Both the position numbers and the translations under genes were made by a program. A DNA stretch of 20,336 nt, taken from IMG/VR virus record IMGVR_UViG_3300002460_000202, positions 1-20,336 of that record. The stretch is one strand, 5' to 3'. The DNA comes from a virus. The notes under the pieces were generated by a model. The model had not been told where the DNA came from. It ran no database searches and saw nothing but the letters and a program-made list of their open reading frames with translations. This document shows positions 2,082 to 17,462 of this stretch, piece after piece (position 1 is the first letter of the stretch; every line of letters begins with the position of its first letter).

Positions 2082-2712
2082 ATACGCTCGATATTACGAT
2101 CTATTTAACCAAAACAAACCCTACAAAAAAGAGATAGAGTTTGTATATCAGTGGGCTAAAAAACCCAGGACTATTTTTGATATTGGACCAGGGACTGGAA
2201 ATTATTGGAAGTTCTACCCAAAAAAAACAGTCCTTTTCGGGGTTGAGAAGTCAAAGTCTATGGCAGATAGGGCAAATGTTGTCGAAGAAATTGTCTGTGC
2301 TGACATAAGGAACTTTAGAATGGAATCTCGATTTGATTGTGCGACTGCTTTGTTTGATGTAATTAACTACATTTCAACAAATGACTGGTGGAAAAATATC
2401 CCTGTAAAAAAAGGTGGATATTTTATATTTGATATTTGGGATAAAGAAAAAGTAAATCAAGACGGATTCATTATAAAAGCAAAAGCAAATGGGACTTCCA
2501 TAAGAATCATTACACCGATCGGCTATGATGGAAAATCTGTGAGGTTGAATATCTCTGTTTTTGAGAATGACCTGCCACAGTTTGAAGAGATCCATCAAAT
2601 GTATGTTTACAGCCACGAAGATATCCTCCGCTTTTGCGGGAAAGAATTTGAAGTTGCCGAGGTGAAACCCACAGAGCGTTGGCAGGCTTGGTATAAATTG
2701 AGGCGTAAATGA
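2071..2712 (+). CDS. class I SAM methyltransferase, DesVI/TylM1-like
   Basis: This 213-aa Rossmann-fold methyltransferase has a clear motif I (IFDIGPGTGN, residues 35-44), an acidic residue ending strand 2 (GVEKS, Glu59) and a motif II/III region (CADIRNF, FDCATALFDVINY). The N-terminal pattern FSKYARYYDLFN and the FEEIHQMYVYSHEDI segment recall DesVI/TylM1-type N-methyltransferases, which methylate the 3-amino group of dTDP-amino-deoxyhexoses. It directly follows a cupin and a sugar aminotransferase, the same trio as in mycaminose/ravidosamine-type routes. Its frame overlaps the aminotransferase by 11 nt and the next gene by ATGA. The region is visibly A/T-richer than its neighbours, which suggests separate acquisition. 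Methyltransferase assignment is strong; the substrate is inferred. Confidence 0.82.
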   Translation: MFSKYARYYDLFNQNKPYKKEIEFVYQWAKKPRTIFDIGPGTGNYWKFYPKKTVLFGVEKSKSMADRANVVEEIVCADIRNFRMESRFDCATALFDVINYISTNDWWKNIPVKKGGYFIFDIWDKEKVNQDGFIIKAKANGTSIRIITPIGYDGKSVRLNISVFENDLPQFEEIHQMYVYSHEDILRFCGKEFEVAEVKPTERWQAWYKLRRK

Positions 2713-3683
2713 AGATCGCTTTGCTTCACCGATACACCCCAGACCGCATAAGCGAGACGAATGCCGCGTATCCGTATCTAGCCGCCAAAGGCATGGACAT
2801 TTTGACTTTCAAGAAGTTTGATAGATTGTCGAGACTGGGTAAGTTTTGGAAAAGCTTACTTTGGATTTTCTACGCGCCGTTCCTAGTTATTGGTAAAGGC
2901 TACGACGTTTTGTATCTCGATGATAGTTATCCTTTCTATCCAGTCCTCGTAAAACTTGCTTCTCCGCGATCTCGTGTCGTCATCCGGCTCGGCGATCTGC
3001 ATCTTATGTATTACTACTCTGGCTGGCTTTATAATTTCCTTCATTTCTTTGAGGAAATCGGCTGGACGGTTGCGGACAAGATTCTTGTTATCTCTCACGC
3101 TATGGCTGAGACTTTAAGAAAAGAAGGCTATCCATGTGAGGTTATTCGTGATCCGGTTGACCCAAAAGACTTCCCGTGGGTTGGCACCAAAGATGACGGA
3201 AATACCGTGATGTTTCATGGAGTTATGACTAAAAACAAGAACCTAGACATGCTCCTTGAAGCCGCCAAGCGAATGCCTAAAACGAATTTCTTGATAATCG
3301 GCGACGGCCCGGATCTTAATCGGTTGCAAAAGATAGCCCCAAGAAACGTATTTTTTGATGGGTGGACACCATTTAAAGATATTTGGCTTAAGATTGCTTC
3401 ATGCTCGGTGGGTGTGGCCTTGCGTAGTGATAACCCCGGCAACGAATATGTCGTCACTTCTCCATTTCTTCAATACGGAATTATGGGCAAGCCATGCCTT
3501 GTAACGCGCCGGAAGGTGTTCGGAGATTATGAATGGCAGTTTTCTGGCGTGGATGAGCTTGTCGAGAAGATAAAAATACTTATGACTAAGCCAGAAGAAG
3601 GCCAGAAGCTTAGAAAATTTGTCTTAGAAAACCACTTGGCAGAGAAAATTGCAGAGCAAATTTTTAGCATTATAAGTAATTGA
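2709..3683 (+). CDS. GT4-family glycosyltransferase (GT-B fold)
   Basis: The 324-aa protein starts in the ATGA overlap at 2709. The N-terminal half has the acceptor-domain opening MKIALLHRYTP and an ILVISHAMAETLRKEGYP segment (about residues 125-142) typical of GT4 enzymes. The C-terminal half has the donor-domain strand VMFHGVMTKNKNLDMLLEA (about 167-185), FLIIGDGPD (194-202), and a stretch resembling the EX7E donor-binding region followed by LQYGIMGKPCLVT (about 255-266). It would move a sugar from a nucleotide donor to a growing glycan on the cytoplasmic side. No signal peptide is evident. It is the last gene before the GGC-pentamer array, which begins 4 nt past its stop. Confidence 0.88.
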   Translation: MKIALLHRYTPDRISETNAAYPYLAAKGMDILTFKKFDRLSRLGKFWKSLLWIFYAPFLVIGKGYDVLYLDDSYPFYPVLVKLASPRSRVVIRLGDLHLMYYYSGWLYNFLHFFEEIGWTVADKILVISHAMAETLRKEGYPCEVIRDPVDPKDFPWVGTKDDGNTVMFHGVMTKNKNLDMLLEAAKRMPKTNFLIIGDGPDLNRLQKIAPRNVFFDGWTPFKDIWLKIASCSVGVALRSDNPGNEYVVTSPFLQYGIMGKPCLVTRRKVFGDYEWQFSGVDELVEKIKILMTKPEEGQKLRKFVLENHLAEKIAEQIFSIISN

Positions 3684-3687
3684 TTAG

Positions 3688-3780
3688 GGCGAGGCATGGC
3701 AAGGCGTGGCGAGGCATGGCAAGGCGCGGCACGGCGTGGCAAGGCATGGCAAGGCAAGGCGAGGCGCGGCGTGGCGAGGT
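3688..3780 (+). repeat. in-phase GGCRH pentamer array, 18 units
   Basis: Positions 3688-3777 are exactly 18 consecutive 5-bp units beginning GGC, with no insertion or deletion, followed by a partial GGT at 3778-3780. The two variable bases are, in order: GA, AT, AA, GT, GA, AT, AA, GC, AC, GT, AA, AT, AA, AA, GA, GC, GT, GA. The fourth base is always a purine and the fifth is never G, and all six allowed combinations occur. A 19-base block recurs at 3688-3706 and 3708-3726, which suggests growth partly by 20-bp duplication. On the + strand every unit starts GG, so the RNA or DNA could form two-tier G-quadruplexes with 3-nt loops. The composition excludes stop codons in all six frames. It is not a CRISPR array. 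Function unknown. Confidence 0.95.
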
Positions 3781-3809
3781 TAATTAAATGACAAATAGGA
3801 GATTTAAAA

Positions 3810-4355
3810 ATGAAAACAATAAAAAGAAAAGTGATATTGAATGGTCTTACGCCGATTTTGTTCGATCGCTACTCAGGAAACAACAAGGAGCAGTTGTCGA
3901 TAATGGAAAAAGCTTATTTCGAGAATCAAAGGATGGTTATACCGTCGACAAACATATTATCATTCTTATCTGCTCAGAACACCGAGAGTGCGCCTCAAAG
4001 AGTAGTAGGGCGTGGATGGAAAGCAGTGGCAAAATCAGCGCAAAGTTATGTTCAAATACACCCGTTTATGATTCCTTTTACAAGAAACGGCAAACAGCTA
4101 ACGCAGGAAAACGCTGATTTAAAAGTCCATTACGCCGTCGCAAAAATTATGAAAGGTAAGTTGGCTATTCCGAACCCAAAAGAGAGGCCGATGCTTGAGA
4201 CTCCGTGGGAGATTGCTTTTGATTTGGAACTTCTTGAAACGCCTGACCTTAACGAAAACCTGCTCAAGAAATTATTTGAGATTGGTGGCGTAGCCATTGG
4301 TCTAGGAACTTTTAGGGGGGTATTTGGAAAATTCAAAGTTACCGAATGGAAATAA
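3810..4355 (+). CDS. unrecognised 181-aa protein with C-terminal glycine-rich loop
   Basis: ATG 3810 has AGGAG (3797-3801) 8 nt upstream. The product starts with a strand-like basic segment (MKTIKRKVILNGLTPILFDR), has a VIPSTNILSFLSAQN segment at about residues 43-57, and ends with EIGGVAIGLGTFRGVFGKFK (about 157-176), a GxG-x-x-R-G-x-x-G-x-F loop followed by a short strand. I do not know a named family. From memory, phage proteins with a C-terminal GIG-R-x-x-YGxF element exist as unannotated single genes. The loop also superficially resembles the glycine-rich loop of RAMP/Cas5-Cas6-Cas7-fold RNA-binding proteins, which is untested. It lies between two glycosyltransferase genes but shows no glycan-enzyme feature, and it directly follows the pentamer array. 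Confidence 0.8.
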   Translation: MKTIKRKVILNGLTPILFDRYSGNNKEQLSIMEKAYFENQRMVIPSTNILSFLSAQNTESAPQRVVGRGWKAVAKSAQSYVQIHPFMIPFTRNGKQLTQENADLKVHYAVAKIMKGKLAIPNPKERPMLETPWEIAFDLELLETPDLNENLLKKLFEIGGVAIGLGTFRGVFGKFKVTEWK

Positions 4356-5178
4356 TCCTTACGCGACCGTCGTAATTTGTACAATGGGCGAACCAAAAAG
4401 AGTTCTTGAGTGTCTTAATGCCCAGACTTTTAGAGACTTTGAGGTTATTGTGGCCTCTGAGAAGGGGATCGTGAATGCACTGAATTTAGCTTTAGGTCGC
4501 GCTAGAGGTGAGATAACAATTCGCATAGACGACGACGTATATTTGCCACCAAGATGGCTAGAAGAGCTTATAAAGCCCTTTTCTGACCCTTGTGTGGCTG
4601 GTGCTACAGGGCCGACATTTGTACCTAGAGAGCTAAGACAGCACAGAGATAGCATAAGGATATGGGAAAATCCAAATAGATTTTTAAAATGGATGACAAA
4701 AACTAATTTCAGACCCCCATATAGCAATGAACTTGCACCGGCGGCGATTTATGATTGTGGGATGGTTTCTTACGATTCAAATTATGAAGAAAGATTTTAC
4801 GAAATAAAAACGATGCCATGTTTTCAGTGTGACCACCTTGAGGGAACGAACTGGGCTATGAGGACTAAGCTCATTCGAGAAGTCGGAGGTTTCAATCCAG
4901 CCTTTGATGGGGTGTGTGAGTGGTTCGACACAGACGTGGAGTTTAAAATAAAGAAACTTGGCTATGTCTTGCGGTATTGTCCAAAGGCTTACCTCTGGCA
5001 CTTGCTTGAATTTAGTCCGAATTACAATGAGCGTTTTGATGGTGTTGGTCGTATAAAGAATTGGATACGATTTCATCGTAGGCACTCAAAGTTTCATTGG
5101 AAGATGGTGGTTTATTTGATGGTGTGGGGAGGGTATTTTATAACAAGGAGATTTAAAAAATTATTTTTTCAATACTGA
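4324..5178 (+). CDS. GT2-family glycosyltransferase (GT-A fold)
   Basis: The only start that keeps the first Rossmann strand (ATVVICTMGEPKRVLECL) is TTG 4324, which has AGGGGGG at 4313-4319. The first in-frame ATG, at 4384, would cut that strand. The 284-aa product shows the nucleotide-binding N-terminus, the metal-binding acidic cluster RIDDDVYLPP (Asp69-71), an acceptor-region EGTNWAMRTKLIREVGGFNP and an aspartate-containing catalytic segment EWFDTDVEFKIKKLGY. The C-terminus is basic and hydrophobic (MVVYLMVWGGYFITRRFKK) and may touch the membrane. It overlaps the upstream gene by 32 nt. It transfers a sugar from a nucleotide donor; linkage cannot be predicted. Confidence 0.87.
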   Translation: MENSKLPNGNNPYATVVICTMGEPKRVLECLNAQTFRDFEVIVASEKGIVNALNLALGRARGEITIRIDDDVYLPPRWLEELIKPFSDPCVAGATGPTFVPRELRQHRDSIRIWENPNRFLKWMTKTNFRPPYSNELAPAAIYDCGMVSYDSNYEERFYEIKTMPCFQCDHLEGTNWAMRTKLIREVGGFNPAFDGVCEWFDTDVEFKIKKLGYVLRYCPKAYLWHLLEFSPNYNERFDGVGRIKNWIRFHRRHSKFHWKMVVYLMVWGGYFITRRFKKLFFQY

Positions 5179-6163: not shown

Positions 6164-6914
6164 CTGTATTAAGGTTGGCGCATTTTTGTATGACAAAGAA
6201 GTAGACGGGCTTTATCACGAAAGCCATTGGTGGTTCCCCGTCCAAATCGGAATCACGCATGGACTTACCCGGTGCCAAGTCACCCCAATGTTTTTGAAAT
6301 TGCCATTTTTAATGAAAGGGTGGGTTCAGGAATACATTCTTCTCCGTGAGATCGAACTCCTGAAACTCGCTCTCACAGGAAAAATCCTTATGCACGGCTC
6401 ATGCTATGACAACACTCTTGTCGTGGGTTTTTCCAATTCAGGAAAGACCTATCAGACCTACAAAGCAGTCTCGGAAGGAGCAAAGCTTATCTCCGAGGAA
6501 TACACGATCATCTACGATGGGAAAGCCCACCCCTACGAGCGCGTCATGAGGACGTGCTTTTCGGCTCGCACGATGAAAGATTGCGGAATCGAGACTTCAT
6601 TAAGAGAAAAACTTTGGCTCATGGCGGCGACACTTCGAGCGACTCTTTTTCCGTTCATGTATGAGGCCGTGATTTGGAAGAACATCCCTGTAAGCGGCGA
6701 GTCATCCGAAATAAAGAAAATCGTCTACGGCTCCACCGGACGAGAGGTAAAAGACTGGAAGGAGTTCGCTATTCTTTGTGAAAACGAGTTTCCTTTTATG
6801 TCGAGTGAGTTTTTGCAGGCGTATGCTCTTGTATCAGGGCTTGATTTGCTTGGAATTCAAGAGACGCAAAGGAATTTAATCAAGAAGTTTGTTGAAAGTG
6901 TATACCCGCTATAA
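6120..6914 (+). CDS. HprK-like P-loop kinase/ATPase domain protein
   Basis: ATG 6120 is preceded by GGAGG (6106-6110) at 9-nt spacing; a GTG at 6111 is the alternative. The 264-aa protein has an N-terminal domain of about 85 residues and then a P-loop unit: LMHGSCYDNTLVVGFSNSGKTYQT with Walker A GFSNSGKT (residues 103-110), followed by GAKLISEEYTIIYDG (120-134). The order His-Gly-Ser strand, Walker A, then an 'ISEE' acidic segment is typical of HPr-kinase-like domains found in polysaccharide and peptide-modification clusters. Such proteins bind ATP and may phosphorylate a small molecule or protein. The true substrate is unknown. The N-terminal segment could be a specificity domain. It overlaps the upstream glycosyltransferase by 44 nt. 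Confidence 0.75.
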   Translation: MDYEVVERININRANCIKVGAFLYDKEVDGLYHESHWWFPVQIGITHGLTRCQVTPMFLKLPFLMKGWVQEYILLREIELLKLALTGKILMHGSCYDNTLVVGFSNSGKTYQTYKAVSEGAKLISEEYTIIYDGKAHPYERVMRTCFSARTMKDCGIETSLREKLWLMAATLRATLFPFMYEAVIWKNIPVSGESSEIKKIVYGSTGREVKDWKEFAILCENEFPFMSSEFLQAYALVSGLDLLGIQETQRNLIKKFVESVYPL

Positions 6915-10057: not shown

Positions 10058-10149
10058 GCGATAATCAAAAATGGTTTTTAATTGGTGGAATTGTTAGTGC
10101 TGTCTCTTGTATGTTGATTGTTCTCGGTTTCATTTGGTTTCATTTATGA
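10054..10149 (+). CDS. 31-aa single-pass membrane microprotein
   Basis: ATG 10054 overlaps the epimerase stop (ATGA) and has GGAGG at 10039-10043. Its own stop overlaps the next start in the same way (ATGA at 10146-10149). The product is a short polar head (MSDNQKW) followed by a single transmembrane helix (FLIGGIVSAVSCMLIVLGFI). Double translational coupling and a clean membrane segment make it credible despite its size. I recognise no family. It may be an anchor or accessory for one of the adjacent enzymes; a holin-like role is unlikely from one helix this short. Confidence 0.65.
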   Translation: MSDNQKWFLIGGIVSAVSCMLIVLGFIWFHL

Positions 10150-11198
10150 GATACCTTTTCCCTCTTAATCCCTACAACCAACAACGTCAATTTCAGAAGC
10201 CAGTCTGGGTCTACCCAGCTCATTTGGCGATGTATGCGACTTATTTGAGGAATGAGGGGCATGAGGTTGTTTGGGATAGCGAAGTATCAAAAGACATGGG
10301 ATTTGATTTGTTGTTAGAACGCAACGATAAGAGAATAGCAAAAATAATCCAAGATGATTTTCAAATAGACGTTCCTTTTGAGGAGCTACCATTCCCAGAC
10401 CGCATATTTACTGATGCTAAGAACAAACGCTGGCAGTCATACGGAAATTATAAATACCATCCGGCTACCCACATGATGGCTTCAAACCTTTGTTGGTGGG
10501 GAAAATGTACGTTTTGTATTGATACCGCCAAACTTCAGGCAGGGGAGAAGCGCGGCATCCGATCGGTCGATCACGTCATGGAAGAAATAGATGATCTCAT
10601 AATAAATGGATATCGCGAGGTCTTTGATGATTCAGGGACTTTCCCTATTGGTGATTGGCTGAACGAATTTTGCCGAAAGATGATTAAGAGCGGTCGCAAT
10701 AAACAAATTGTTTGGGGTTGCAATATGAAACCAATCGCCGAGAAAGTGGTGCCTTTTAAACTGATGAAAGAAGCTGGGTGTCGGTTCATGTTAGTCGGAG
10801 TTGAATCAGCGAATCAAAAGACTATTGATATCATAAAGAAAGGTCAGGAGTCTCACAAGGTTATCGAGAACATGAAAGCCATGAATGACGCTGGCCTAGA
10901 GGTCCACCTGACTTCGATGTTTGGATATTCTTGGGAAATGTATGAGGACAATATGCGGACAGTAAATCTTGTCCATTATCTTTTGAGAAAAGGATATGTC
11001 AAAACCGCCCAAGCTTCTGTCTACATGTCGCCTCGCACGGCTCCTGATCCAAACTCGCCAGCGCAGAAATACATCCAAAAAGTTTACGATATCTATAAAG
11101 ACCCCCGGTATTGGCTCAGGAAGATTTTAGATTTAAGACGTTGGGAGGATGTGACGTATTTATTAAAAAGGATCGGGCATGTCAAACACGCTAAATAA
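10146..11198 (+). CDS. radical SAM enzyme, B12-type architecture likely incomplete
   Basis: I chose ATG 10146 (ATGA coupling); the upstream TTG 10107 is inside the microprotein gene. The 350-aa protein opens with MRYLFPLNPYNQ and a GHEVVWDSE segment that recalls the start of a cobalamin-binding-type Rossmann domain, though the domain is too short to be complete. The radical-SAM cluster is CWWGKCTFC (Cys116, Cys121, Cys124), a CX4CX2C variant of CX3CX2C. Downstream it has the typical barrel elements EVFDDSGTFPIG, WGCNMKP, GCRFMLVGVESANQKTID and TSMFGYSWE. It would use SAM and a 4Fe-4S cluster for radical chemistry, perhaps on a sugar or lipid in this cluster. The substrate cannot be inferred. 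Confidence 0.85.
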   Translation: MRYLFPLNPYNQQRQFQKPVWVYPAHLAMYATYLRNEGHEVVWDSEVSKDMGFDLLLERNDKRIAKIIQDDFQIDVPFEELPFPDRIFTDAKNKRWQSYGNYKYHPATHMMASNLCWWGKCTFCIDTAKLQAGEKRGIRSVDHVMEEIDDLIINGYREVFDDSGTFPIGDWLNEFCRKMIKSGRNKQIVWGCNMKPIAEKVVPFKLMKEAGCRFMLVGVESANQKTIDIIKKGQESHKVIENMKAMNDAGLEVHLTSMFGYSWEMYEDNMRTVNLVHYLLRKGYVKTAQASVYMSPRTAPDPNSPAQKYIQKVYDIYKDPRYWLRKILDLRRWEDVTYLLKRIGHVKHAK

Positions 11199-11637: not shown

Positions 11638-13000
11638 TTATATCTTTTGGATCATAATCGTTAATCTAGCTCTTTACTTAAAAACGCTTCGTTATAAATT
11701 TGTTTCAGATGACTTCTCCTGTTGGAAAAACCCGCCAGTCGCAAAGAATGCCTGGAACCGTCTTTGGCTTCAAATCACCGGCCAGATGAAAATCTACGCC
11801 AAGAGCGTTCAGTTTGTCCGCGCCAATGGGAAGCTCTTTATGGTGATTGTGAGGAAAGAAGAAATGGAGCACCTTTTGGCTTTGACGCTTCACATCGCTA
11901 TTTGCCTCTCTATCTATTTTGCGTTTGGCGCGTCATGGGTGTTATTTGTGGCTGCCATACTTTATTCAGTGAATCCTGTAAATAATCAAGGCACGATCTG
12001 GCCGTCAGGACGTGGGTATGTGTTTCCGATTCTTGGGATTACTCTTTCCATGGCTATACCTTTTCTTTCGCCTTTATTTCTTTTTGCTGGTACATGGTAC
12101 ACGGCCGGGTTTTTGGCTCCGCTCGCGCTTATTGGATCAAAGTGGTGGTACCTACTGGCCTTCATGCCTATTATTTGGTGGATTCACTCAAAGAAGTTTA
12201 CGAAGGCCGTAAAAAACAAGCAAGTTTCGGAAACTTTTACTGAAGATAAGATTGTCCATCCTAAAAAACTTATTCTTGGTATAAAGACTTTTGGATTCTA
12301 TCTATTTCTTTGTATTATCCCTTTTCGGATTACGTTCTACCATAATTTCCTTCAGTCCTCTGCTGGGAGCATGAAACATAAGAATTACACCCTTTGCAGG
12401 TATTTTTGGTTTGGTTTTACAGCCATTGCCATATGGGTCTATTTTGCTATTACAAGCCCGTGGTCAACACTTCTTTGGGCGTTTCTAGCCTTCTTCATTA
12501 CCATAGCACCATTCACGAATGTCGTTAGGGCGAACCAAGAGATCGCGGAACGCTTCGCGGCACTTCCGAACGTATTTTTGATGTACGCTCTAGCGCAGAT
12601 TATAGCACCCTATAGCATTTTATGCACAGCGTTCGTAGTCTTTTACGCCACCAGAACATTTTATACTTTAAAAATGTATCAAGACGAATATTACATAACC
12701 GAGGTTGCGATTATTGAAGATGAGGGTTCTTGGTGGGCTTGGCACTGCCGCGCCATGAAGCGATGGGATACTCAAAGCTATAAAGAGGCATTAATCCTTT
12801 GGGTGAGGGCTATGTTAATTTCTAAAAATGAATTTAAGGTTTTGATTAATATTGCCACTTGCCTGCGGTTATTAAAAAATGATGCCGAAGCTGACCATTA
12901 TCTTGTGTTAGCAGAACAGAACGTTGTTCCAGGACAAGAAAAGGAAGCAAAACAATTTATAGAAGATCATAGACGTGGTAAACTACCAATATTGCTTTAA
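11630..13000 (+). CDS. GT-C-type membrane glycosyltransferase with C-terminal TPR-like repeats
   Basis: The 456-aa protein opens with a transmembrane helix (residues 3-18) followed by LRYKFVSDDFSCWKNP, where the Asp27-Asp28 pair sits just after helix 1, as in the catalytic loop of GT-C enzymes. Several more hydrophobic helices follow between about 85 and 350. The ILYSVNPVNNQGTIWPSGRGY segment resembles the conserved 'HPVxxEaVawiaGR' block of TMTC-type O-mannosyltransferases. The last 90 residues are soluble and helical (WHCRAMKRWDTQSYKEALIL, then FKVLINIATCLRLLKNDAEAD) and look like two or three TPR units. It is shorter than the 600-900 aa of cellular TMTC-like proteins. It would transfer a sugar from a polyprenyl-phosphate carrier on the periplasmic face. 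It is the last gene before the head-module promoter. Confidence 0.72.
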   Translation: MSNYIFWIIIVNLALYLKTLRYKFVSDDFSCWKNPPVAKNAWNRLWLQITGQMKIYAKSVQFVRANGKLFMVIVRKEEMEHLLALTLHIAICLSIYFAFGASWVLFVAAILYSVNPVNNQGTIWPSGRGYVFPILGITLSMAIPFLSPLFLFAGTWYTAGFLAPLALIGSKWWYLLAFMPIIWWIHSKKFTKAVKNKQVSETFTEDKIVHPKKLILGIKTFGFYLFLCIIPFRITFYHNFLQSSAGSMKHKNYTLCRYFWFGFTAIAIWVYFAITSPWSTLLWAFLAFFITIAPFTNVVRANQEIAERFAALPNVFLMYALAQIIAPYSILCTAFVVFYATRTFYTLKMYQDEYYITEVAIIEDEGSWWAWHCRAMKRWDTQSYKEALILWVRAMLISKNEFKVLINIATCLRLLKNDAEADHYLVLAEQNVVPGQEKEAKQFIEDHRRGKLPILL

Positions 13001-13007
13001 AGAATAC

Positions 13008-13036
13008 TTGCTTTAAAAAAAGTCAAGTGATATTAT
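13008..13036 (+). promoter_or_regulatory. putative sigma70-type promoter for the head/packaging module
   Basis: TTGCTT (13008-13013) and TATTAT (13031-13036) are separated by exactly 17 bp in an A/T-rich stretch, and the first downstream gene starts at 13058. The -10 matches the consensus at 5 of 6 positions and the -35 at TTG plus spacing. TTGCTTTAAA occurs twice, at 12992-13001 and 13008-13017, 16 bp apart, and could be an operator pair. It lies at the junction between the glycan block and the structural genes, where a promoter is expected. Confidence 0.5.
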
Positions 13037-13057
13037 CATAGTAGTGGGAGATTCGAC

Positions 13058-13234
13058 ATGCCAACACCATTTGAAAAAAGGCCTTTCAGCATGTTTTCTG
13101 TTTCTGATGAAATCACTGTCAATCGAGTCGGGAAGAGAGTGACGATCAAAGGGCGGGACGGTACGTTTACGGATTCGGATTCAGTTGAGGCGAATTTACT
13201 TTTTGAAATACTTAAGGTGCTGAAAAAGAAATAG
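13058..13234 (+). CDS. hypothetical small phage protein, 58 aa
   Basis: ATG 13058 has GGGAG (13046-13050) 7 nt upstream, and the frame ends at TAG 13232-13234. The 58-aa product is mixed charge: an MPTPFEKRPFSMFSVSDEIT head, VNRVGKRVTIKGRDGTFTDS as a strand-rich centre, and a helical Lys-rich tail (LLFEILKVLKKK). The centre looks like two beta hairpins, reminiscent of a small SH3-like or DNA-contact fold, without a named family match. It is the first gene after the putative promoter and precedes the terminase genes by 24 nt. Confidence 0.7.
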   Translation: MPTPFEKRPFSMFSVSDEITVNRVGKRVTIKGRDGTFTDSDSVEANLLFEILKVLKKK

Positions 13235-15846: not shown

Positions 15847-17462
15847 TCCAGCAATACGAACAAGAATTAAGTAAACGCCGTAACTTTGAGAGTTACTGGC
15901 AGACCCTCCATGACTATTTTTACATCGAATCAGCCGATGTAAACAACACCTATTCGATTGGCAACGAAATTGACCCGTCCATGCTTTGGGATTCCACGAC
16001 CCTCGAAGCGTCGGATGTATTCGCATCCGGGTTTATGAACTATCTCACGCCTCCGACCTCCAAATGGTCAAGACTCCGTTCTAGAGATCCGGCGCTTCAA
16101 TCAAACGAAGCGGTCAACGTGTTCCTTGAAGACGTGATGGCCGAAGTCAATTACGCTCTTAACCGTTCTAACTTTTATGATCAGATGTTCCCGGCTTATA
16201 AGTCAAGCGGAGTGTATGGCACTACCTGTCTTTTTGAAGAAGAAGATGTCGAGGACGACATTCGTTTCTACAATATGCCACTTAAGCAGTGCGTGATTGT
16301 AGAGGACGCAAGAGGGAGAGTATGCAAATTTTACATTGAGTTTGAGTACACCTCAGAACAAGCCGCAGGCAAGTGGGGCGAAGATGCTTTATCCTCCGAG
16401 ATGAAGCAGGAAATTAGGGAAGGAAAAGGCCAATCCGTTAAGCATAAATTCCTTCTTTTTATAGCGGATCGTTACGTGCGGGAAATCCAAAAAGAAGACA
16501 AGCGAAACCTCCCAATCGAGGCCGTATGGATTGACGTTAAAGGACGTATGATCGTGGATGAGTCAGGGTACAACGAGTTTCCAGCGTTCGCGCATCGTTT
16601 TGACAGGAGGCCTTTTGTTCCTTGGGGTTTCTCTCCAGCTATGAAAGCACTGCCTTTCGCGAGGCTTTTAAACGCTATTGCCAAGACCAATCTTCGCACT
16701 ATGATGAAACACACCGACCCCCCGATTGCCGTGCCTCACAACGCCTTTTTAGCACCTTTTAACATGAATCCAAGAGCGATCAACACCTATAGAAAAGAGC
16801 AGATGAAAAGTGGTAAAGACATCTTCGCCTTCGGGAACTTCGGCGATCCTGGTATTGGCCTTCAAGCAGTCGAATATTATGCAGGGAAAGTAAAAGTCCT
16901 GATGTACCACGATGTGTTTCTTGCTTTCTCGAACATCACCAAAGACATGAATAACCCAGAGATCATGGAGCGAATCAACGAGAAAATGACGATGTTGGGG
17001 CCCGCGGTAGGCAGGTATTTGGATGAGGTCATAAGTCCAATTATTCAAAGAACCGTCGGAATCTTAGCGCGTCGCGGAAAGCTCCCCGATCCACCCATTG
17101 AGTTTCTTATGAGTTCGGGTTATGAGATTGACTTTGTTGGGGTTCTCGCGCAAGCCCAGCGCAGGGCCGAACTTAATACCCTCGTCACAGGACTCACGAT
17201 GATAGGGAATATGGCGCAGTTCTCACCTGAAGTCTTGGATAAGATTGACCCGGACAAGGTGACAGACGAAGTTTGGAGCATTACAGGCGCACCGGTGAAG
17301 GTTTTAAGGGATGACGATGAAGTACGTCAGATTAGGGAGGGACGAGCGGAGGCGGCCTTAAAACAGCAGGAAATGGCCGAGATTCACGCAGGGTCAGAGA
17401 TAGCAAAGAACGCCGGAGCCGCCGAGGCTGGATTTGCAAAGGCGAAGGAAACGAATAAATGA
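15789..17462 (+). CDS. head-tail connector (portal) protein, T7/BPP-1 type
   Basis: ATG 15789 follows AAGGAG (15777-15782). The 557-aa protein begins with a helix (RADELIQQYEQELSKRRNFE), then DPSMLWDSTTLEASDVFASG (about residues 58-77) and NYLTPPTSKWSRLR, all typical of the podovirus 'head to tail connecting protein' family. Further marks are RPFVPWGFSPAMKALPFARL, LNAIAKTNLRTMM and an Ala/Glu-rich C-terminal tail. Twelve copies form the DNA-entry ring that binds terminase during packaging and the tail afterwards. This family is the main evidence that the phage is podovirus-like. Confidence 0.93.
   Translation: MPYAQTESKPVSKPRADELIQQYEQELSKRRNFESYWQTLHDYFYIESADVNNTYSIGNEIDPSMLWDSTTLEASDVFASGFMNYLTPPTSKWSRLRSRDPALQSNEAVNVFLEDVMAEVNYALNRSNFYDQMFPAYKSSGVYGTTCLFEEEDVEDDIRFYNMPLKQCVIVEDARGRVCKFYIEFEYTSEQAAGKWGEDALSSEMKQEIREGKGQSVKHKFLLFIADRYVREIQKEDKRNLPIEAVWIDVKGRMIVDESGYNEFPAFAHRFDRRPFVPWGFSPAMKALPFARLLNAIAKTNLRTMMKHTDPPIAVPHNAFLAPFNMNPRAINTYRKEQMKSGKDIFAFGNFGDPGIGLQAVEYYAGKVKVLMYHDVFLAFSNITKDMNNPEIMERINEKMTMLGPAVGRYLDEVISPIIQRTVGILARRGKLPDPPIEFLMSSGYEIDFVGVLAQAQRRAELNTLVTGLTMIGNMAQFSPEVLDKIDPDKVTDEVWSITGAPVKVLRDDDEVRQIREGRAEAALKQQEMAEIHAGSEIAKNAGAAEAGFAKAKETNK

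Follow-up and report, generated by a model that had tools for sequence, protein, structure and literature searches.

VIPR (Viral Interference Programmable Repeat) has been described in Escherichia phage SUSP1 and in a Pseudomonas fulva prophage (bioRxiv 2026.04.26.720920, PMC13142463), and this preprint (April to June 2026) was the sole description of the system found in our literature search. Vipr, a small phage-encoded RAMP with an RRM core and a glycine-rich loop, binds a vrRNA built of GGY/NN repeats, which comprises 9-16 YNNGG repeats plus an invariant, structured 3' tail (PMC13142463). The NN pairs read double-stranded DNA with one base skipped, and transcription of competing phages is repressed (PMC13142463). 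Seven VIPR types are distinguished, among which arrays and accessory genes vary and some types carry predicted nucleases; the system resides mainly in phages, proviruses and some prokaryotes, a vap accessory is typical but not universal, and VIPR has been proposed to predate CRISPR (PMC13142463).

Here, we analysed a locus in a virus record (G000), the whole 20,336-nt stretch of which is referred to as the window. The window encodes terminase, a head-tail adaptor and the major head protein, preceded by a run of glycan genes that harbours the following features:

2709-3683, plus strand: upstream glycosyltransferase (group 1) by Pfam, context outside the system
3685-3782, plus strand: putative vrRNA repeat tract of 19 YNNGG repeats and a terminal TTA, assigned from sequence, the family feature described below and the grammar of PMC13142463
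3797-3801, plus strand: AGGAG, a putative ribosome-binding site by sequence, 8 nt before the ATG of the 181-aa gene
3810-4355, plus strand: vipr gene, 181 aa, encoding a predicted RAMP-fold Vipr (ORF, profile matches, fold model)
4324-5178, plus strand: downstream GT2 glycosyltransferase ORF by Pfam, start codon uncertain, context outside the system

The sequence confirms the GGCRH array and adjacent 181-aa gene inside a glycan operon that the preliminary description had reported, with glycosyltransferases on both sides. Eighteen consecutive GGCRH units, all perfect, span 3688-3777, with TAG before and GGTTA (3778-3782) after them; read as GGY units there are 19 in succession (3688-3782) with seven kinds of NN, and the tract is not a simple repeat. 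The YNNGG register, which is the better one, gives 19 repeats at 3685-3779. The array starts 4 nt past the stop codon of the upstream glycosyltransferase and its last GGY unit lies 27 nt from the start of the 181-aa gene, the 3' end of which is overlapped by the GT2 ORF if the TTG start of the latter is correct. Five GGYNN units in a row were matched 15 times in the window, always within the array (0.01 expected from shuffles), and four GGCRH units, searched with a tolerance of 3 mismatches, had a single match outside it (16726-16745, minus strand); the pattern read backward had none in the virus record. A sigma-70 site before the array was not supported and no promoter- or terminator-like site was recognized by simple consensus. 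A special RNA fold was likewise not supported (z -1.28), and Rfam gave no match. Pfam scans of ten other window ORFs revealed no cas gene, and no longer-unit array of the CRISPR type was listed in the window. The notion that array and gene form a mobile cassette found no support; in the comparison made for it, the upstream glycosyltransferase had no match among phage records. Within the same phage glycan cluster, the ORF at 10107-11195, without a PHROG match, contains a cysteine-rich stretch which we take to resemble radical SAM enzymes.

Single-sequence searches were nearly blind to the protein family. Pfam and NCBIfam hold no family for the window protein, a viral-contig search with this protein alone gave no match, and tblastn against 50,697 phage records returned one weak match (E 5e-3) and missed SUSP1; blastn of the array region yielded short matches only. 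The AlphaFold2 model of the protein (29-row alignment) reached a pLDDT of 95.9 and a pTM of 0.88, and its best VIA structural matches were Csm3 and type VII Cas7-like backbone subunits (Z 12.6 for a Lactococcus Csm chain, with 164 residues aligned at 4.2 A, and Z 12.4 for a type VII chain). Foldseek of the model gave an E of 6.5e-6, and among viral models a phage protein named "Cas system-associated RAMP superfamily protein" ranked third (E 1.4e-7). Two alignments were used as profiles, A1 with 29 proteins and A2 with the 12 rows of the window clade, and the window protein carries every residue invariant in either, as follows from the construction of those alignments. Against the PDB, A1 matched a single sequence (E 6.8e-19), 36pp chain D, which is labelled "SUSP1 Vipr protein", and A2 again found only 36pp (E 7.7e-6; hhalign probability 94.8), in a match that covers just 54 profile positions of the C-terminal region, where the glycine-rich loop lies. 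Both profiles single out a minus-strand ORF of the SUSP1 record, 28474-29061 (A1, E 7.2e-22; A2, E 1.5e-8), which is flanked on both sides by GGYNN arrays of the same strand. Furthermore, SUSP1 Vipr (1.4e-96) and the window protein (4e-6) have a PHROG in common, phrog_4652, a family of unknown function. The Cas7/Csm3-type model, the profile matches and the common PHROG identify the 181-aa protein as a predicted RAMP-fold Vipr homologue.

The pairing of arrays with this protein was approached from both sides. Viral contigs were scanned for eight exact GGCRH units, yielding 94 stretches; the backward motif gave 9, three of them shared simple repeats. Before any profile was made, a phmmer search of the ORFs of these array loci, with the window protein as the only query, detected relatives in 29 loci at E < 0.01, 24 of them below 1e-28. 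Profile A1 matched 65 of the 94 loci, 54 of them within 300 nt of an array; the matched loci comprise 64/80 with diverse arrays vs 1/14 with simple repeats. Since 28 of the 94 loci had supplied rows to A1, this count is partly circular, and more weight is given to loci selected by homology. A2 picks viral loci by protein only, and the best 80 of 155 relatives were used. In 62 of these 80 loci, at least six perfect GGYNN units are found no farther than 300 nt from the gene, either side counted, vs 0 of 784 random gene-sized positions in the same loci, all over 2 kb away from it. The preliminary description had asked whether arrays lie within 300 bp upstream of homologues, and with both sides counted the pairing is supported. 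Extending the distance to 1500 nt gave 66/80, and lowering the threshold to at least four units within 300 nt gave 71/80. The association persisted when the 7 contigs common to the array-selected set were removed (55/73) and when only distinct proteins, with near-identical ones also removed, were counted (43/59).

All 172 arrays within 1500 nt share the strand of the gene in the homologue-selected loci, and only 3 arrays are farther away in 540 kb. The backward-motif control gave 1 chain vs 175; GCYNN and CCYNN were set aside as controls, being the other-strand reading of the same arrays and hence not independent. Among 21 control loci, six had been picked by the backward motif (three with simple GGYNN arrays), and the other 15 had none. 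In four of five loci from cellular genomes, arrays of at least four units occur no farther than 1500 nt from the gene. An array of at least four units was absent within 1500 nt in the Paraburkholderia locus, and one of six units within that distance from 14 of the best 80 of 155 viral homologue loci; imperfect or lost arrays are the only explanation we can offer for these relatives. The array-protein pairing is real.

For the window locus, the analysis shows the array, the gene, their pairing across many viruses, the same-strand orientation, the modelled RAMP fold and homology to SUSP1 Vipr. A predicted Vipr protein, an adjacent GGY/NN tract and a viral genome are features that it shares with VIPR, and we conclude with a probability of about 0.92 that a tailed phage carries here a minimal VIPR locus, a guide RNA with its reader Vipr. 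Points against this reading are the repeat number, the relatives that lack arrays, the absence of promoter- or terminator-like sites by simple consensus, the short match of the window clade to SUSP1 Vipr, and the negative target searches and skip comparison given below. The repeat and reader-protein pair suggested earlier can accordingly be named from fold, sequence and literature as vrRNA and Vipr. The class of system is already published, and the window locus is a new, compact and remote member of it. As in SUSP1, a RAMP-fold protein of about 180-200 aa stands beside same-strand GGY/NN pentamers in a phage genome, and relatives of the window locus show the published kind of layout, in which arrays flank the gene on either side and 3' tails are common within a locus. 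Nevertheless, similarity between the window protein and SUSP1 Vipr is only remote. SUSP1 has four vrRNAs of ~100 nt and vap1, whereas the window has one 19-unit array inside a glycan operon with no accessory seen; its 19 repeats exceed the 9-16 stated for vrRNAs. Architectures are said to vary among types (PMC13142463), and repeat number was not treated here as defining. With class 1 CRISPR RAMPs (Csm3 of type III-A, type VII Cas7-like) the protein shares the overall fold, according to the model, and the glycine-rich loop, but it is smaller and has 9-16% identity to them. Class 1 CRISPR-Cas uses ~30-nt repeats and spacers, in contrast to a putative guide of period 5 with 2 variable bases in the window.

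Expression of the window locus, RNA binding, reading with 1-nt skips and repression are inferred by analogy with the SUSP1 and P. fulva VIPR. Transcription of the array on the plus strand would produce a vrRNA guide of about 19 GGY/NN repeats, which several copies of the 181-aa Vipr would coat by means of the RAMP fold and the glycine-rich loop. The protein would grip the GGY triplets; base-pairing with double-stranded DNA would be the task of the NN pairs, with one base of the target passed over between consecutive pairs. Transcription of the bound target gene would be blocked, the target most likely lying in a competing phage, satellite or prophage. We would guess that the guide is either cut from the glycan-operon mRNA or transcribed from a promoter within the gene upstream. 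With no nuclease-like partner seen on the contig, we would also guess that the window VIPR represses rather than cuts. A more specific proposal, tentative and in its entirety rather doubtful, is that of a stand-alone unit of one Vipr and one unusually long guide between two glycosyltransferase genes, the guide being excised from the 5' leader of the vipr message. Such a unit would repress and not cut, unlike the sister loci with a predicted metallophosphoesterase, and may link expression of the surface-glycan genes of the phage to the silencing of competitors. A one-guide and apparently accessory-free member from a remote clade helps to define the smallest working VIPR unit. Where sister loci have a nuclease-fold partner, they would make repression and cutting comparable inside one family. 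Moreover, a VIPR pair can be found from raw sequence through its repeat grammar alone.

The nearest relatives found, L087 and L110, both viral contigs, group with the window at 100/99 support, and the L087 protein has 60% identity to the window protein. They carry four and three arrays, respectively, on the strand of the gene, as opposed to one in the window, and an adjacent predicted metallophosphoesterase gene, none being seen in the window:

L087, 2278-3090: gene of a conserved 260-270-aa protein
L110, 6630-7442: gene of the same protein, with 13 further loci carrying it

This protein stands beside vipr, among the arrays, in 15 of the best 80 of 155 loci (12 distinct tree rows) and has the motifs DxH, GD, GTxYH and HVH; three members of the family gave no Pfam and no PHROG match. 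Its model (pLDDT 83.6) has a metallophosphoesterase fold, best matched by the proofreading exonuclease PolD DP1 (Z 18.2) and matched also by Mre11 and Vps29, and on this model it is likely a nuclease-type VIPR accessory. The window locus might on these grounds be a DNA-destroying VIPR whose nuclease partner is encoded elsewhere in the phage, destruction of target DNA being suggested for the sister loci with a metallophosphoesterase. The presence of the gene in 12 distinct clade rows, both nearest relatives included, the resemblance of the model of its product to PolD DP1 and Mre11, and the chance that the window contig is a fragment speak for it. We consider it unlikely, however: no homologue is found among the ORFs of the 20,336 bases of the window, the gene in the relatives adjoins vipr instead of being remote, and the enzyme activity of the metallophosphoesterase-like protein is only predicted.

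Less probable than a remote nuclease is a decayed or self-regulatory Vipr locus, in which the array would be bound by Vipr as the leader of the vipr message and would no longer guide to foreign DNA. The end of the array 27 nt before the start codon, with a ribosome-binding-like site in between, would suit such a leader, as would a single array with no accessory seen and no target found. Nothing at the locus looks decayed, though, since 19 of 19 GGY units are perfect and the invariant residues are kept (as the alignments were constructed); the string of NN is not a simple repeat, and relatives have arrays downstream of the gene, away from its start. Finally, a coincidence in which a GC-rich microsatellite happens to lie beside an unrelated gene, conceivable in so far as viral contigs do contain simple GGCAA-, GGCGA- or GGCAC-type repeats, 13 of 14 loci of this kind lacking a homologue, is refuted by the homologue-selected association (62/80 vs 0/784), the single strand of 172/172 arrays and the diverse NN.

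Targets of the putative guide were searched for under the minimal VIPR reading. Decoded with one-base skips, units 1-12 had no exact match in viral contigs, and units 9-18 (10 units) had none in genome contigs. The decoded 9-unit seeds 1-9, 6-14 and 11-19 matched 6, 6 and 3 viral-contig stretches, which were rejected as targets: the remaining units agreed about as expected by chance, the best stretch reaching 26/38 bases vs 22-23 for shuffled guides in the window. Within the window itself, the decoded guide reached 24/38, shuffled guides 22-23. When 332 distinct arrays (at least 9 units and at least 4 kinds of NN) were compared with 1.77 Mb at skips of 0-3, no skip length, that of 1 nt included, rose above shuffles. 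For L210 (Candidimonas), a relative, one array had no match across 268 genomes from its family even when 3 mismatches were allowed. The second L210 array, searched in the genome that carries it with a tolerance of 2 mismatches, gave 41 matches vs 25 for the backward pattern, which were taken as noise. The missing target says little, because these searches required exact seeds or used small collections.

Across the family, the repeat follows GGYNN. The GGCRH motif first proposed for the array describes its 18 perfect units in the window and is too narrow for the family; among 116 distinct arrays of at least 9 units from homologue-selected loci, the window array is the most RH-biased (18/19 GGY units, vs a mean over all units of 59%). 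A pyrimidine three bases ahead of the first GG occurs in 92% of 64 array starts and is thus a family feature. With 19 units, the window array belongs to the 17 of the 116 that have at least 19. The last units are often GGCAA (second-last unit, 63 of the 116 arrays), so that the 3' units of arrays may be constant and not targeting; the window array deviates from this. Arrays within one locus have common 3' tails in L114, L146 and L152, the window having a single array only. A TATAAT-like box before arrays was dismissed, its occurrences being scattered with no fixed placement. If the window array is read in codons whose third base is passed over, polar and non-polar residues would alternate, which is only suggestive.

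Several loci of the survey display features of their own. L030 contains 13 GGYNN arrays of at least 7 units in 13.7 kb (across the whole locus, e.g. 12607-13204) with no Vipr profile match, and these are possibly orphan guides that use a Vipr encoded elsewhere; 15 further diverse-array loci are also without a Vipr profile match. In L100 (11092-14020), a GGATACTTTGTGGATT-like stretch recurs after the arrays and has the appearance of an invariant guide tail shared by a dispersed group of arrays. In L124, a long near-perfect hairpin (TGGCTTCGTGATGCC...GGCATCACGAAGCCA, 6673-6742) directly follows the array and is a candidate structured vrRNA tail or terminator.
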